A program made the position numbers and the translations under genes. 64,000 bases of DNA, taken from contig NZ_CP009516.1 in NCBI RefSeq assembly GCF_000970285.1, positions 1,901,036-1,965,035 of the forward strand. The letters run 5' to 3'. The notes beneath the pieces were generated by a model. The model made no database searches. It was not told the origin of the DNA and worked only from the letters and a program-made list of their open reading frames with translations. This document shows, piece after piece, positions 20,012 through 27,776 of the stretch (positions are counted from its first letter, which is position 1; each line of letters begins with the position of its first letter). This stretch comes from Methanosarcina horonobensis HB-1 = JCM 15518 (GTDB lineage Archaea > Halobacteriota > Methanosarcinia > Methanosarcinales > Methanosarcinaceae).

Positions 20012-21868
20012 TCACTCCTTCTTCATACTTTTTAGGATAATTCCCATCGTTCCAAGTGTACCGAGTACAAGTCCCATACCCAAAAGAGCATTCTTATTCT
20101 TGTCGGACTCGGGCTCTTTAGACTCATTTCCTTCCTGGTCTTCCGGGATATCTCCAGCAGCTCTACTCTCGGCAGTGATTGTCTCTTCTTCCTGCAGAGA
20201 TGTCCCTGAAATTGCAAAGAAGCTGTATCCGGAGACTTCAGAAGTGTAATAGAGGTATTCGTCATCTTCTCCTGTCAGCTCTGTTTTCAGTGAAGTCCAG
20301 TTTCCATTCTTCTCGTCATGCTCATCCTCATCCACATACCAGTTCAGGGTAATCGAGTCACGGTCTACATTCTTGTCCAGGACCCAGGCCTTTTCAACCT
20401 TGAAGTCCAGAGTAGGGTGATCAATGTTTTTCGGAGTTGCATATCCTACATTTCCGACCCAGACATTGAAGGATTTATAAATTTCTCCTTCCGGGAGTCC
20501 AGGAACAAGGGCAGACTTGTTCTTCAACTGCTCAACAATAGTTGTTATCTTGCCAGCGTTCTTGATTGCGTCAAAGTCCACCGACACAACACAGGTTGCA
20601 TTGTTTTGGAACTCGAACTTTACATCTTTGCCGTTAGGGATGAAGAGCTGGGAAAGTTCCTTTACCTCAACATTTCTGGCAAGTTCTGGAGATCCACCTC
20701 CACCACTGCCTCCGGATGAACTTCCCGAACTCCTGTGAGAGCTTCCTCCTGAGCTGCCGGAGCTTCCCGAGTTTCCTTCATCCGTAACTTCTTCGGTTTC
20801 ATTTCCGGACTCGGAGGTTACATCAGTTGAGTTATCTGCTGGGATAACATCTGCTGTATTATTATCTTCTGAAGCAGTACTGTTATCATCTAGGATCACT
20901 TCATCAGTGCTGTTGTCCTCTGTGGGTTCTTCCGGTTCAGGAGGTGGTGTGACTTCAGGTTCTTCTTCCTGTTTTGCAAGAGGCAGATGGTCGATTGCGA
21001 CATCACTTATCTGATACGGTTCTTCAGCAAACCCGTCTCCGTTAGTATCCAGGTGAGTATCTGAGAAGCCATTTCCCGCAGGTGTGGACCAGTAATTGCC
21101 CCCTATGTATTGACCCCCTATGATATTCTTATCTGCGTTCTTTGCAACATTTAGAGTGCAGAAAGCCTCATCATCTATCTGCAGGTTGATATCGTTGTAA
21201 AAGTAGTTGTTGTAAATCAAAGCAGAGTCATCAATAAGATGGATTCCGATGCTGCAGTTTTTGAATGTGTTTCCAGTAACTACGTGGCTACCGCCTCCCC
21301 ATGAGAATAGAACTCCTACATTACAGTTTAAGAATGTGTTTCCAATGATTGTATTATTATAGCTGTCATAAGTGCTTACACCTGATGGACTTCCCGTAAA
21401 GAGGTTGTTCATTACTATCTGATTTCCATACAGGTAGCTGCTACCCATACTTACGCCACAGCCCTCAAACCGGTTGTTTCTTACTGTACAGGCAGTTCCT
21501 GCCTTTTCAAAATCGACTCCTTTTGTAATCGTAAACCCTTCAACAGTCGAAGGTGCGTATAACCAAAATCCCCCAATAGATGGATAAGATGTACCGGCTC
21601 CTTTTATTGTCACAGATACCTCTACAGGGATCCGTTCATCAGTCGGATAGGTCCCAGGCTGCACTATTATAGTATCCCCGTCAACAGCATCATTCAGGGC
21701 TGCCTGGATTGTCGTGTAGTTTCCAGGTCCGTTATCATCTACTGTAAATGTTGTAGCTGCTGCACTTCCAGTGAGGGCCTGGAGAGCCAGAGTTACCGTA
21801 AATAATACTGATAATATCCTTTTTGTCAGAATAACCACCCTACGTTTTTTAATCCTGTTATTCAACAC
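20012..21868 (-). CDS. Surface beta-helix protein with PGF-pre-PGF domain
   Basis: 618 aa from GTG 21868 (later in-frame starts near residue 11 are possible). A signal peptide is followed by VDDNGPGNYTTIQAALNDAVDGDTIIVQPGTY, the usual opening of a NosD-like beta-helix that runs to about 290. A Pro/Glu/Asp/Thr-rich and then Ser/Gly-rich linker follows (SSGSSGGSSHRSSG). Next comes the PGF-pre-PGF domain common in Methanosarcina surface proteins (VKFEFQNNATCVVSVDFDA through YYTSEVSGYSFFAISG). A transmembrane helix (LLGMGLVLGTLGTMGIIL) and a short basic tail end the protein. It is likely anchored in the membrane and exposed at the cell surface. Convergent with the CooC-like gene. Confidence 0.8.
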   Translation of the reverse strand: MLNNRIKKRRVVILTKRILSVLFTVTLALQALTGSAAATTFTVDDNGPGNYTTIQAALNDAVDGDTIIVQPGTYPTDERIPVEVSVTIKGAGTSYPSIGGFWLYAPSTVEGFTITKGVDFEKAGTACTVRNNRFEGCGVSMGSSYLYGNQIVMNNLFTGSPSGVSTYDSYNNTIIGNTFLNCNVGVLFSWGGGSHVVTGNTFKNCSIGIHLIDDSALIYNNYFYNDINLQIDDEAFCTLNVAKNADKNIIGGQYIGGNYWSTPAGNGFSDTHLDTNGDGFAEEPYQISDVAIDHLPLAKQEEEPEVTPPPEPEEPTEDNSTDEVILDDNSTASEDNNTADVIPADNSTDVTSESGNETEEVTDEGNSGSSGSSGGSSHRSSGSSSGGSGGGGSPELARNVEVKELSQLFIPNGKDVKFEFQNNATCVVSVDFDAIKNAGKITTIVEQLKNKSALVPGLPEGEIYKSFNVWVGNVGYATPKNIDHPTLDFKVEKAWVLDKNVDRDSITLNWYVDEDEHDEKNGNWTSLKTELTGEDDEYLYYTSEVSGYSFFAISGTSLQEEETITAESRAAGDIPEDQEGNESKEPESDKNKNALLGMGLVLGTLGTMGIILKSMKKE

Positions 21869-22874: not shown

Positions 22875-23450
22875 TCAGTTAAATTTGCTGTCCGGAGAAT
22901 CTGTCAGGGTTCCACTTTTGTAAATAAGCCCGAGAAGCCTCAGCCTTTTTTCTCTGATAAGGGCATCAGTAGGGTCTATCTCCAGAGCCCTGTCATAAGC
23001 CTCCATGGCCTCTCCATACCTTCCAAGATTTTCCAGGACCGAGCCTTTCTGATACCAGGAAAAGACATCCTCGGAGTTGACCTTAAGAACCTCATCATAG
23101 CACTCTATAGCTTTTTCATAGTCCTTTAGATTACTGTAGGCAAAACCCTTGAGGCACTTTATTCCCAGATGCTCGGGTTCGATTTCAAGAGCTCTATTAT
23201 AACAGGCAAGAGCTTCTTCAGATCTCCCGAGTCTGTCCAGGACAAAACCCTTCTGGAGCCAGGCATCAAAGTACATTGGATCCAGATTTAAAGCTTCATT
23301 ATAAAGCCTGAGTTTGTCCTCATAATTGTCAGTCTTACCTGCTGCTATAAGGAACTGCCCGGGGTCCTCGGTCTCTTCGGTTTTTCCTGCCGCTTCCAGC
23401 TCCTTTTGCTCTATCTTAGCATTTTCTGTGGTATTACTTTCCTCTGCCAT
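22875..23450 (-). CDS. TPR-repeat protein
   Basis: 192 aa from the ATG at 23450, which has GAGGA upstream; the frame is open to a TTG at 23600, adding 50 residues with a weak hydrophobic segment. After an acidic N-terminus come about four tetratricopeptide repeats, for example YFDAWLQKGFVLDRLGRSEEALACYNRALEIEP and VFSWYQKGSVLENLGRYGEAMEAYDRALEIDP. TPRs scaffold protein-protein contacts. It lies downstream of the PBP4-like gene on the same strand and may share its transcript. Partner unknown. Confidence 0.8.
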   Translation of the reverse strand: MAEESNTTENAKIEQKELEAAGKTEETEDPGQFLIAAGKTDNYEDKLRLYNEALNLDPMYFDAWLQKGFVLDRLGRSEEALACYNRALEIEPEHLGIKCLKGFAYSNLKDYEKAIECYDEVLKVNSEDVFSWYQKGSVLENLGRYGEAMEAYDRALEIDPTDALIREKRLRLLGLIYKSGTLTDSPDSKFN

Positions 23451-23642
23451 TTCGGAATCCTCGGTTTCCAGCTGAAGATATATTCGGACCCCTTTCGGAA
23501 TCATCTTCCATGCCTGATTTCTAAGCATTATGCATGAAATCATGGTCAAAACTGCTATTGTGCACTTTGTTTCCAATGAGATATACTTTTTCTGATTCAA
23601 ATAAGGGCATTTTCCAGAAACGTTTTTTACACTCTTTTATAC

Positions 23643-25289
23643 TTAATTCTCCCTGTATATCGCCTCACAGACGCTTCCCAGGTCATTGCCAACCTGCTCC
23701 AGTTCCTCGATATTCTCGACAGGGACGTTATTCACATATACTGCAAAGGCTAGCCTCCGGCCCTCGGATGTTGTCATGTACCCGGCCAGGGCTTTGGAAG
23801 AAACGATAATCCTGTCATTAACGGCATCGTACTTGGCAGTTGTTCCGGTCTTCGCCTGGACTTTTCCTTTCACAGGGCTTTCAGGACTAATAGAAGTCGC
23901 AAGAGACCCATCAACCCCGAGAATCGGCAGAGCATCCAGATATACCTGTGAGTCATCCCTTGAAGACATATATTTCAGAAGGTTCACTGTATTCCTGGGC
24001 GTCATAAAATCAGCAGGAGAATTACCTCTGCCATCGGATATGGATAAAGAATTGAGGTCAAGCCCGGCTTTCTCAAGGAAGGTACGTTCTATGGTCAAGC
24101 CGTCCCAGAAGCTCCTTTTGCCTTCTTTTACCGCCATCAGAGGCAGAAGTGAATCAGCATGCATGTTCTGGCTGACCTTCAGTATCAGTTTCAGGTTCTC
24201 AGAGAAAGGAGGAGATGTCAGGAGTACTACTCTTTCCATATCCGAGTAGTCCATGCTGGGCGGCAACAAATCTGAAGGGTTATTACCTCTAACCTGGGCA
24301 TTTATTTTTACTCCCTCGCGCTCCAGGGCTTCTATTAAAAGAGAGCGGGCGAAAGAAGAAGGGTTCTCCACCCTGTAGGTCTGGACAACAGGACCATTGC
24401 CTGCAGGTATCTGCCCCGATATTTTAATCACACCCGGACCACCTGTTAATATCTCCAGTTGAGCAGCTTCATCCGGGTCAGCTGTTATAACATTCGCCTC
24501 GACCTTATAAGCTGCAGTTTTGGGACGCCAATCCACTTCTGCTTCTCTTCCCGGCTGAGAAGGTTTGACTGTAATATCGATGAGGTTGTCATTGATGACT
24601 ATCGGTGTAAGGGTGTAATCACTGGCACTATCCGGAGGGTCGATTTTATCGAAAAACCGGTCGTCGATTATAACTTCCCCTGAGACGCTTTTAATTCCTG
24701 CATCCGATACCTGTTGGGCTAGCTGGTTCAGTCCGGATAGAGGGTCAGGAGTTGTTAATACGGCGTTGCCAAGAGAGTTGGCATCTCCATGATCAAGATC
24801 GGTGTAAGCGATCTTTCCGTCCGGGGTGGTCCGGCCTCCCGTTGTGAGGTCTCCACTGGCTACCAGTATCAGGTCTCCATTCAGGTTTCCTGAAGAGTCT
24901 ACATGACCGCGGGCATATACAGGAGTCTCGAACCTATAATCAGCCCCTATCACATCAAGGGCAGCGGCTCCTGTGTAGAGTTTGGTTGTAGAGCCCGGAG
25001 AGAACATTTTTTCCGGATTCACCTGGTAAATGACTTCTCCGGTATCCAGGTCTTCTACAAGGATTCCCCACCAGGCGTGATCATATCTTGTGTTATTCAT
25101 TATTCCTGTTACGGAAGCTGGAAGAGGTTCACCTTCCAACGGGCTATCCCGGCTATTTCCTTCAGCCCCGGCAAATGATTGCGGAACCGAGATAAGGCAT
25201 ATTATTCCCAGTAATAAATAGCATACATACCTTTTAGACCTGTATCCTTTAGACTCATGTCTTTTGGACCTGAAAGCATGGGGCTTCAT
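23643..25289 (-). CDS. D-alanyl-D-alanine carboxypeptidase/endopeptidase, PBP4 (DacB, peptidase S13) family
   Basis: 548 aa from the ATG at 25289, preceded by AAAGGAG. A basic N-terminus and signal peptide (YVCYLLLGIICLISVPQSFAGA) indicate export. All three active-site motifs of penicillin-recognising serine enzymes are present. They are SxxK as S100-T-T-K103 in FSPGSTTKLYTG, SxN in KVSQNMHADS, and KTG in VQAKTGTTAKYD. The large domain inserted between SxxK and SxN, typical of PBP4, is present. In bacteria this enzyme trims peptidoglycan, but Methanosarcina is expected to have no murein. It may cleave another D-amino-acid or wall peptide, or act on foreign peptidoglycan. Probably bacterial in origin. 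TPR and PASTA genes lie on either side. Confidence 0.88.
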   Translation of the reverse strand: MKPHAFRSKRHESKGYRSKRYVCYLLLGIICLISVPQSFAGAEGNSRDSPLEGEPLPASVTGIMNNTRYDHAWWGILVEDLDTGEVIYQVNPEKMFSPGSTTKLYTGAAALDVIGADYRFETPVYARGHVDSSGNLNGDLILVASGDLTTGGRTTPDGKIAYTDLDHGDANSLGNAVLTTPDPLSGLNQLAQQVSDAGIKSVSGEVIIDDRFFDKIDPPDSASDYTLTPIVINDNLIDITVKPSQPGREAEVDWRPKTAAYKVEANVITADPDEAAQLEILTGGPGVIKISGQIPAGNGPVVQTYRVENPSSFARSLLIEALEREGVKINAQVRGNNPSDLLPPSMDYSDMERVVLLTSPPFSENLKLILKVSQNMHADSLLPLMAVKEGKRSFWDGLTIERTFLEKAGLDLNSLSISDGRGNSPADFMTPRNTVNLLKYMSSRDDSQVYLDALPILGVDGSLATSISPESPVKGKVQAKTGTTAKYDAVNDRIIVSSKALAGYMTTSEGRRLAFAVYVNNVPVENIEELEQVGNDLGSVCEAIYREN

Positions 25290-25510
25290 ATATAATCTCC
25301 TTTCGACCTTTCTATACGATACTTCATCAATGAAGCTAATAAACATGTAAGAACCAAAAATCCACAATCGGTTGAACAATTCACTAAATTATGTCAGAAG
25401 GAAAAAGACGCAGGTTCTGGGTAGAAGGGGTAAAAATGGAACAAGATAAATCTAAAGGAATAAAATTAGATGATAATTAATACAGGCAAATTGAAATGAG
25501 TAGTATGAAA

Positions 25511-25586
25511 AAGGTAAAGTGAAAAATAGGTAAATGAAATAAGTAAAGTGAAAATAAGTAAAGTGAAATAAGTAAAATGGAGTAAA
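25511..25586. repeat. Short tandem repeat upstream of the PBP4-like gene
   Basis: Five imperfect 13-17 bp units built on GTAAAGTGAAATAA start at about 25513, 25530, 25543, 25558 and 25572. They fill the gap between the end of the upstream TPR gene (25602) and the PBP4-like leader. The rest of the gap 25290-25601 shows no gene. Confidence 0.6.
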
Positions 25587-25601
25587 TATATTTTAAAGAG
25601 A

Positions 25602-26768
25602 TTATCGAGAAGTTTTCGCCTTTTCTTTACTTATTCTCGAAAGAATTTCGACCTTGATCTCAAGCGCAGGAGGAAAACCTGGTTTTAATTCGAGTGCCCT
25701 GTTACAGCTTTGCAGAGCTTCTTTCTGTCTGTCCAGTTCTGAAAGGACAAGTCCCCTGCCTGCCCAGAGCCCTGGGTCTTCCGGGGCAGCTTTAAGAGCC
25801 GTATCATATGCTGTCAGAGCCTCCTCAAACCTGCCCAACCTGGAAAACAGGTTTCCGGCAGATCTCAGGGCTTCCAGGTAATCAGGCCTAATTTTAAGGG
25901 CTGAAAGATGTGCTTCAAGGGCTTCTTCTTTCCTGTCAAGTGCTAAAAGGACCGAACCCTTTCCTGCCCATGCTTCGGCATATTCGGGATTTTTCAGGAG
26001 TATTTTTTCGTAGACTGCAAGTGATTCTTCAAGCTTTCCAAGCCTGGAAAGCACAACTCCCTTGTTATCCCATACTATTTCAAAAGCCGGTTCAAGCTCA
26101 ATTGCTCTATCGTAGGCATCTACTGCTTCTTCAAGCCGGCCCATTTCCGAGAGTACTACACCCCTGTTATACCAGACCCTGAAATCGTCAGGAACTATTT
26201 CAAGCACCTGCTCTATAAGCTGCAGGGTGGCCTCAAATCTTTTTGCTTTATAAAAAATCACGGCTTTCTGGAAGAGGGCTGTAGCATTCTTCCGGTCTTT
26301 CTCAAGCATCTCAGTACAGGCTTTAAGTTCATCGAAAAAAAGGAGAGAAGCATAAAGGTCCCTGATATCCGTAAAAAGAGGAAGGATTTCATATTTATCT
26401 TCCTGAACTGTTAAAACTGCTGTATCAGAATTATATGAAAAGGCTGCTGGTTTTTGCTGGCAGGTATTCTCCTTCTGGATTTTTTCTATTCTCCTGAGCA
26501 TTATCTCCAGATGGGACATAAGTCTGGGGGATAGAGAGAAATTCTCATCTATAGAAAGGATTGTTCTGAGATTTTTTCGGTATTTTTTGTCACTTTTGTT
26601 CCAGAGAATATCTGAAATTCGGCTGCATGCAGTAAAAAATTCTTTAAGATGAGCATGCAGGTCCACATCTCCGGAATTATTTAAATTGCCGAAACTCCCG
26701 ATTGCAGCACTGCAATGCTTCCGGAGTTCAGGAAGAATTTCACTATATTCGGAATCAAGCCTTTTCAT
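25602..26768 (-). CDS. Large TPR-repeat protein
   Basis: 388 aa. The first ~150 residues are not repeat-like and contain helical segments (LRKHCSAAIGSFGN, MSHLEIMLRRIEKIQKE). From about 155 onward at least six TPRs follow, with units such as FRVWYNRGVVLSEMGRLEEAVDAYDRAIELEP and YAEAWAGKGSVLLALDRKEEALEAHLSALKIRP. No signal peptide, so cytoplasmic. It sits between the PASTA protein and the PBP4-like gene on the same strand. A scaffold role is likely, with specific partners unknown. Confidence 0.82.
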   Translation of the reverse strand: MKRLDSEYSEILPELRKHCSAAIGSFGNLNNSGDVDLHAHLKEFFTACSRISDILWNKSDKKYRKNLRTILSIDENFSLSPRLMSHLEIMLRRIEKIQKENTCQQKPAAFSYNSDTAVLTVQEDKYEILPLFTDIRDLYASLLFFDELKACTEMLEKDRKNATALFQKAVIFYKAKRFEATLQLIEQVLEIVPDDFRVWYNRGVVLSEMGRLEEAVDAYDRAIELEPAFEIVWDNKGVVLSRLGKLEESLAVYEKILLKNPEYAEAWAGKGSVLLALDRKEEALEAHLSALKIRPDYLEALRSAGNLFSRLGRFEEALTAYDTALKAAPEDPGLWAGRGLVLSELDRQKEALQSCNRALELKPGFPPALEIKVEILSRISKEKAKTSR

Positions 26769-26885
26769 CAGTACCAGATCCTCTTATCATTACCCTTTCT
26801 TTTGCTCGTAAAGTTCTCTATCTATCTACTGTCTATGGGCTTTGATCAACCCTGCCAGACTGGAGAACAGCTTCTCTCGATCTTC

Positions 26886-27395
26886 TCAATGCCTTGAATA
26901 TGAACATAGAAGTGAATCCTGGCTCAGATCAGGTTTGAAATTCCCTTTTTTTGCCACTACCAGGTCTACTGTTGATCCTCTTTCTGCAAGCTCTCCGCCC
27001 TTTGGCTCCTGCTGGACAACGTCTCCGAAACGGACACCCCCTACAAAAACACTCTTCTCTCCAATATTACCTGCCTGCAGTCCTGCTTCTTCCAGTTTTT
27101 TAACAGCCTGTTTCAGAGGCAACCTTATAACAAAGGGCACTTCAACTTCTTTCTTCTCAAGTTCGACATCCGGCGATTCTGTATCGAGTACTTCTTGAGT
27201 GATGATCTTACTCTCTTCTCCCAGAACCTCTTCAAGAAGCTCGATAGCTCCGCTGATCCTCAAGAGCGTTTCATTCAGATTTTTTTTTCTGTTTTCAAGT
27301 TCTATAATTTTTGCCTCGATATCTTTGAGGATCTTCTGACCTGACTCGTACTCAGCCCTGAGCTCTACCAAGCGCTGTTCAAGTTGTTCTTTCAT
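26886..27395 (-). CDS. Coiled-coil protein with C-terminal PASTA domain
   Basis: 169 aa from the ATG at 27395; an ATG at 27416 is possible. Residues 1-65 form a long coiled coil (KEQLEQRLVELRAEYESGQ onward). A PASTA domain covers about 85-155: EVPFVIRLPLKQAVKKLEEAGLQ, then GDVVQQEPKGGELAERGSTVDLVVAKKG. PASTA domains in bacteria sit on penicillin-binding proteins and Ser/Thr kinases and sense wall peptides. Here there is no signal peptide or membrane segment, so the domain would be cytoplasmic, which is odd. Its nearness to a PBP4-type peptidase is suggestive but not proof of a link. Confidence 0.82.
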   Translation of the reverse strand: MKEQLEQRLVELRAEYESGQKILKDIEAKIIELENRKKNLNETLLRISGAIELLEEVLGEESKIITQEVLDTESPDVELEKKEVEVPFVIRLPLKQAVKKLEEAGLQAGNIGEKSVFVGGVRFGDVVQQEPKGGELAERGSTVDLVVAKKGNFKPDLSQDSLLCSYSRH

Positions 27396-27776
27396 GTCCT
27401 GTAAACCCCTCTTCATTGTTTATTGATATCAATCAAGCCAAAATAAGGCTATGGATTTATTTTAATTTCCTTTATGTCCAGTACTTCAAAATGAAGTAAT
27501 TTATTTTTCATTTAGCCCTTTTATTTTCCCTTTTATTTTACTCCATCTACATTTCAGTCCAATACATTTTAAGTTTTATATTTTTACTCATCAGTAAAGT
27601 AGCTTAAAAGGAGATTATGAAAGAAATGCAACTTAACGCAGACTAGAAAAAGTTCATAAAAAAGAAGTGAAAGAATTATTGTTTCTGATTTTTATTTAAC
27701 CCTTAAGCCCCCTAAACTATCCTTGAAACGCGAATTTATCGGGACTTTCAGGTAAAGATGATAAGGAGTCACTTTT
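27396..27776. other. Intergenic region between divergent genes
   Basis: No gene. T-rich stretches around 27455-27600 should hold the promoter of the minus-strand PASTA/TPR genes. The plus-strand DUF169 gene follows GATAAGGAG (27758-27766). Confidence 0.4.

Follow-up and report, generated by a model that had tools for sequence, protein, structure and literature searches.

A PBP4-type DD-peptidase gene of bacterial kinship inserted between two TPR genes in Methanosarcina

The stretch of DNA analysed here, called the window, comprises 64,000 nucleotides of the genome of Methanosarcina horonobensis HB-1 = JCM 15518 (NZ_CP009516.1, positions 1,901,036 to 1,965,035), and positions below are those of the window unless another contig is named. 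On its minus strand lies a gene for an S13 or PBP4-type DD-peptidase of 548 residues (23643..25289), flanked on the same strand by a gene for a coiled-coil/PASTA protein and by two TPR genes. The protein matches PF02113 with an E value of 2.4e-70 (237.9 bits against a curated cut-off of 22.8) and TIGR00666, the NCBIfam model of PBP4, with an E value of 2.3e-58 (197.8 bits against 107.8), and with both curated family cut-offs exceeded it belongs to MEROPS family S13 (PBP4). The catalytic SxxK, SxN and KTG motifs that mark this family are present in that order, at S100-K103 (SPGSTTK, 24981..24992), S373-N375 (KVSQN, 24165..24173) and K480-G482 (23844..23852), all on the minus strand. Across an alignment of 40 relatives S100, K103, S373, N375 and the K and G of the last motif are invariant, and its T is nearly so. 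The S13 domain is the only domain found by a Pfam search, and there is no fused wall-binding (murein-binding) domain. The gene is present in a single copy in the source genome, which is one contig of 5,018,607 bases.

The S13 start is most likely the ATG at 25289 and not the TTG at 25379, and a GGAG site lies 7 bases 5' of this ATG. The leader (25290..25395, minus strand) is conserved between the two S13-bearing species when the upstream DNA of the window is compared with that of the second carrier (L054). It probably holds the gene's own promoter and the GGAG ribosome site, the promoter role being judged from the letters. Residues 1-40 (25170..25289, minus strand) form a predicted signal peptide that would be cut after SFA, between SFA and GAE. 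Residues 22-40 make up a strong hydrophobic stretch (KD 2.02), and residues 1-21 and 40-49 have a pLDDT below 50 in an AlphaFold2 model with an overall pLDDT of 91.1. The first-pass annotation had described a complete S13 enzyme with intact motifs and a signal peptide; both family models, the motifs and the hydrophobic stretch bear this out, the signal being a prediction.

The PASTA gene (26886..27416, minus strand; PF03793, E value 3.1e-12) and the first TPR gene, TPRa (25602..26768, minus strand; 388 aa; PF00515, 6e-43), lie upstream of S13, and the products of both are predicted to be cytoplasmic. The second TPR gene, TPRb (22875..23450, minus strand), lies downstream and encodes 191 aa from its likely start. 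Both TPR genes are core genes of the genus by synteny. TPRb was first read as 22875-23600 on the minus strand, with 241 aa, and comparison between species moves its start most likely to the ATG at 23450, with the DNA upstream being a leader that contains a conserved promoter-like element. An apparent hydrophobic export segment in the 241-aa reading falls in this leader DNA by the same comparison and was discarded. The element itself is TATA-like and about 30 bases long (23566..23598, minus strand), and blastn of intergenic regions finds it in nine species (86-100% over 22-65 bp). Since S13-less species keep it too and it stands directly behind S13 in the window, the S13 insert would end upstream of it, which gives the insert its 3' limit. 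The earlier observation that two TPR genes and a coiled-coil/PASTA gene flank S13 on one strand therefore stands, with the lower TPR start corrected to 23450. A hydrophobic export segment was sought in the PASTA, TPRa and TPRb proteins and none was found, and they should thus sit across the membrane from S13. Long reading frames, up to 1541 aa and with numerous matches to the PASTA domain, were also seen in Methanosarcinaceae of another genus (G340:C24:36247-43042, G184:C1:3238299-3244479 and G373:C60:2679-9874). PASTA domains are common in Methanosarcinaceae and are therefore no sign of murein there.

Stretches of 16 kb around the PASTA gene were taken from 18 Methanosarcina genomes and the window genes were mapped onto each. 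The order PASTA-TPRa-TPRb on one strand is readable in 15 of these loci, in most of which the block is flanked by a TctA gene and a CooC-like ATPase gene. Only two of the 15, the source genome and G001, have S13 between TPRa and TPRb, and the other 13 keep the three genes together without it. Across the genus S13 is present in 2 of 31 species and the PASTA gene in 29. The second carrier, which we take to be M. acetivorans, carries this gene at the corresponding site, and M. acetivorans, used as a named control, was positive for S13. In species without S13 the distance between the TPRa stop and the first alignable TPRb codon is 51-345 bases, and tblastn at an E value of 1 found no S13 remnants between the TPR genes of these Methanosarcina. 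By this sequence comparison S13 was inserted between the two TPR genes, and its position reflects the insertion site and not a common task with its neighbours; TPRa has no part in S13 function. Further along the window, a gene for a NosD/PGF-pre-PGF surface protein (20012-21868, minus strand) lies between the CooC-like gene and TPRb. These two genes are close together in the other readable loci, so that a second accessory surface gene has seemingly been inserted in the source genome.

A genome scan for S13 recovered 560 relatives, and the best 80 of these come from Planctomycetota, Bacillota, Verrucomicrobiota, Acidobacteriota, Gemmatimonadota, Actinomycetota, Thermodesulfobacteriota, Methanomicrobiales and other groups. 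No S13 relatives were found on viral contigs. Two trees were built, a quick one of 88 rows and a careful one of 42 rows. The Methanomicrobiales rows form one clade (100/98 support in the 42-row tree), and in both trees the Methanosarcina pair lies outside it, among bacterial rows. The pair is placed near a Bacillota MAG (L086) and a Methanothrix MAG (L089), its precise position having only moderate support, and the nearest bacterial rows differ between the two trees. A sister relationship with the Bacillota row is disfavoured (p 0.03); for the Methanothrix row p is 0.45. Shared methanogen ancestry was rejected, as forcing the Methanosarcina and Methanomicrobiales proteins together costs 14.6 log units (AU p 0.0156), a value to be taken with care because the grouping was picked after a tree had been viewed. 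Haloarchaeal S13 proteins form a third, distant group in the 88-row tree. The separation of the three archaeal groups suggests several entries of S13 into archaea. S13 is also patchy among the Methanomicrobiales-type relatives of G208 (15 of 80 genomes), and the only recurrent neighbours of note at Methanomicrobiales S13 loci are sensor-type proteins, at a few loci.

The S13 genes of the two Methanosarcina carriers differ with a dS of 0.68 and a dN/dS of 0.163, and the neighbour genes of the same two species have dS values of 0.34-0.61 and dN/dS values of 0.07-0.47. A recent transfer of S13 between the two carriers was ruled out by this similarity in dS. The carriers are not sisters either, as the source genome pairs with the S13-less G008 with full support in a tree of neighbour proteins. 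Taken together, this fits better with a gain that preceded the split and was followed by several losses than with a recent exchange. Judged by these comparisons, S13 is under constraint and its age is close to that of the species split, and the protein constraint argues for its use in both lineages.

The AlphaFold2 model aligns with B. subtilis PBP4a (1w5d) over 435 residues at 2.1 A with a Z score of 38.8, residues 54-547 of the model lying on residues 5-462 of the chain. Actinomadura R39 (1w79) and E. coli PBP4/DacB (2ex2) follow with Z scores of 38.7 and 35.2, and over the three enzymes 424-438 residues are aligned (Z 34-39). The predicted model thus has the transpeptidase fold with inserted domains II and III that is expected of MEROPS S13. 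Like these class C1 low-molecular-mass PBPs, the Methanosarcina protein shares the fold over all domains, the SxxK/SxN/KTG motifs and a signal peptide, however, it is only 25-28% identical to them, carries the GGRT..PDG..TD.DHG.A stretch conserved in its subfamily, and belongs to an archaeon that has no murein pathway. Members of this GGRT/DHG-type subfamily from Planctomycetota, Verrucomicrobiota, Bacillota, Acidobacteriota, Actinomycetota and Methanomicrobiales are 35-52% identical to it over nearly the full length and have common conserved stretches. The signals differ within the subfamily. The Methanomicrobiales signal is lipoprotein-like and ends in GC(T/S), as seen by eye in 8 of 8 rows of the alignment (a strict lipobox pattern gives few matches), whereas the Methanosarcina signal ends in SFA/GA.

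Two other systems provide points of comparison. PBP4-type enzymes take the last D-Ala off pentapeptides and cleave D-Ala cross-links, and the predatory endopeptidases Bd3459 and Bd0816 of Bdellovibrio have been turned on the murein of other cells (PMC3276566). The Methanosarcina model resembles them with a Z score of about 25 but is predicted to keep domain III, which they lack. Archaeal murein hydrolases of bacterial origin that kill bacteria have also been described already (PMC12352652). S13 is like these in its bacterial origin, its patchy distribution, its predicted export and a host without murein. The survey that identified them required a fused wall-binding domain, which the S13 protein does not have, and S13 is not named in its text. 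No publication on the expression or function of a Methanosarcina S13 was found in the literature searched.

What does a DD-peptidase do in an archaeon without murein? A few murein-related families were searched one by one in the source genome. No Mur ligase is above the Pfam cut-off, the one weak match (L170) reaching 20.7 bits against 24, and no Amidase_3 was found, which supports the earlier expectation that the organism lacks murein. The best D-Ala-D-Ala-ligase match is the ATP-grasp part of a fusion with a SAM methyltransferase (L171:160-2265, around G000:C1:423805-424365). The cell seemingly makes no murein, so foreign murein would be the likeliest substrate of S13.

Intact motifs, predicted fold, bacterial kinship, insertion and purifying selection are established for S13, and the explanation we favour is built on them. 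An ancestor of some of the Methanosarcina would have acquired a bacterial PBP4-type gene, which would have landed between two TPR genes and would later have been lost by most descendants. The protein would be exported by its Sec-type signal, passage through the S-layer being assumed, and with an intact active site and a full PBP4 fold it may act as a serine DD-carboxypeptidase and/or endopeptidase on murein or murein fragments of neighbouring bacteria. The benefit may lie in weakening these bacteria or in freeing D-alanine and peptides. We consider it probable, with a good share of doubt, that S13 is such a horizontally acquired, exported enzyme, used in antagonism or in salvage. Competitor lysis and salvage had been proposed in the first-pass annotation; the enzyme is as described there and these uses are still the best guess, but the grouping with PASTA and TPR proteins fails the adjacency check that the annotation itself had set and has to be given up. 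Against our explanation, DD-carboxypeptidase action alone does not lyse cells. The retained domain III and the missing wall-binding domain also argue against the protein being, like Bd3459, a dedicated broad lysin. Killing, weakening and salvage may each be the benefit.

The other explanations differ in where they place the substrate and in whether there is a function at all. The adjacency of the four genes on one strand in two species would suggest a single module of wall-like assembly made up of S13, the PASTA protein and both TPR proteins, but this is extremely improbable. Only 2 of the 15 readable loci place S13 beside these genes, S13 has its own leader and TPRb its own promoter-like element, the neighbours are predicted to be cytoplasmic, and no PASTA or TPR neighbours were found at Methanomicrobiales S13 loci. 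Purifying selection is also compatible with an exported enzyme whose substrate lies in the archaeon's own envelope, namely an unrecognised peptide with D-amino acids at its end that is linked, for example, to methanochondroitin or an S-layer glycoprotein, and Methanomicrobiales likewise hold S13 by separate acquisition. This is decidedly unlikely, however, because a gene present in 2 of 31 species cannot underlie any core envelope step in the genus, and the absence of a Mur ligase over the cut-off and the nature of the best ligase-like match speak against it as well. It is very unlikely that two methanogen groups independently recruited PBP4-type DD-peptidases for a D-amino-acid-bearing peptide of their own envelopes.

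The absence of S13 from most species could also mean that it is a catalytically idle or drifting import without a selected function and heading for loss. The Methanothrix relative (L089:3269-4924), in which KTG reads KGG and which is possibly inactive or repurposed, points the same way. The frame and motifs are complete in both Methanosarcina carriers, however, dN/dS is low and the divergence is as deep as that of the neighbour genes, so that an idle import is unlikely. An isolated, unexpressed import had been considered in the first-pass annotation; bacterial kinship in the trees agrees with the import, and purifying selection goes against the rest. Finally, the transpeptidase domain of the model aligns with class A beta-lactamases (Z 22-24), and S13 might bind or hydrolyse beta-lactams or another D-amino acid ester or peptide instead of murein. 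The match to full-length PBP4 enzymes is far better, and archaea lack a target that would need protection from beta-lactams, as is generally known and as PMC7697635 indicates, so that such an activity is highly improbable.

Archaeal murein hydrolases from bacteria are already known, and the Methanosarcina S13 is a further member. As an intact and selected DD-peptidase it lengthens the short list of murein enzymes that archaea have kept from bacteria. Methanosarcina is a genus with good genetics, and the action of a methanogen on the walls of its bacterial partners is thus open to test. At the S13 locus gene adjacency was also a misleading guide to function.

M23 peptidases were seen in some of the same genomes. 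The source genome encodes a signal-bearing M23 peptidase of 540 aa (L178:862-2484, around G000:C1:2378748-2379137) with a weak match to a DPBB (double-psi) or lytic-transglycosylase-like domain. M23 is patchy too, with 18 carriers among the 31 Methanosarcina. A back-to-back pair of S13 and a lipoprotein-like M23 gene (L072:7432-10367) occurs in G208, a genome of Methanomicrobiales type. The M23 genes are circumstantial evidence, in keeping with a set of accessory enzymes directed at murein.
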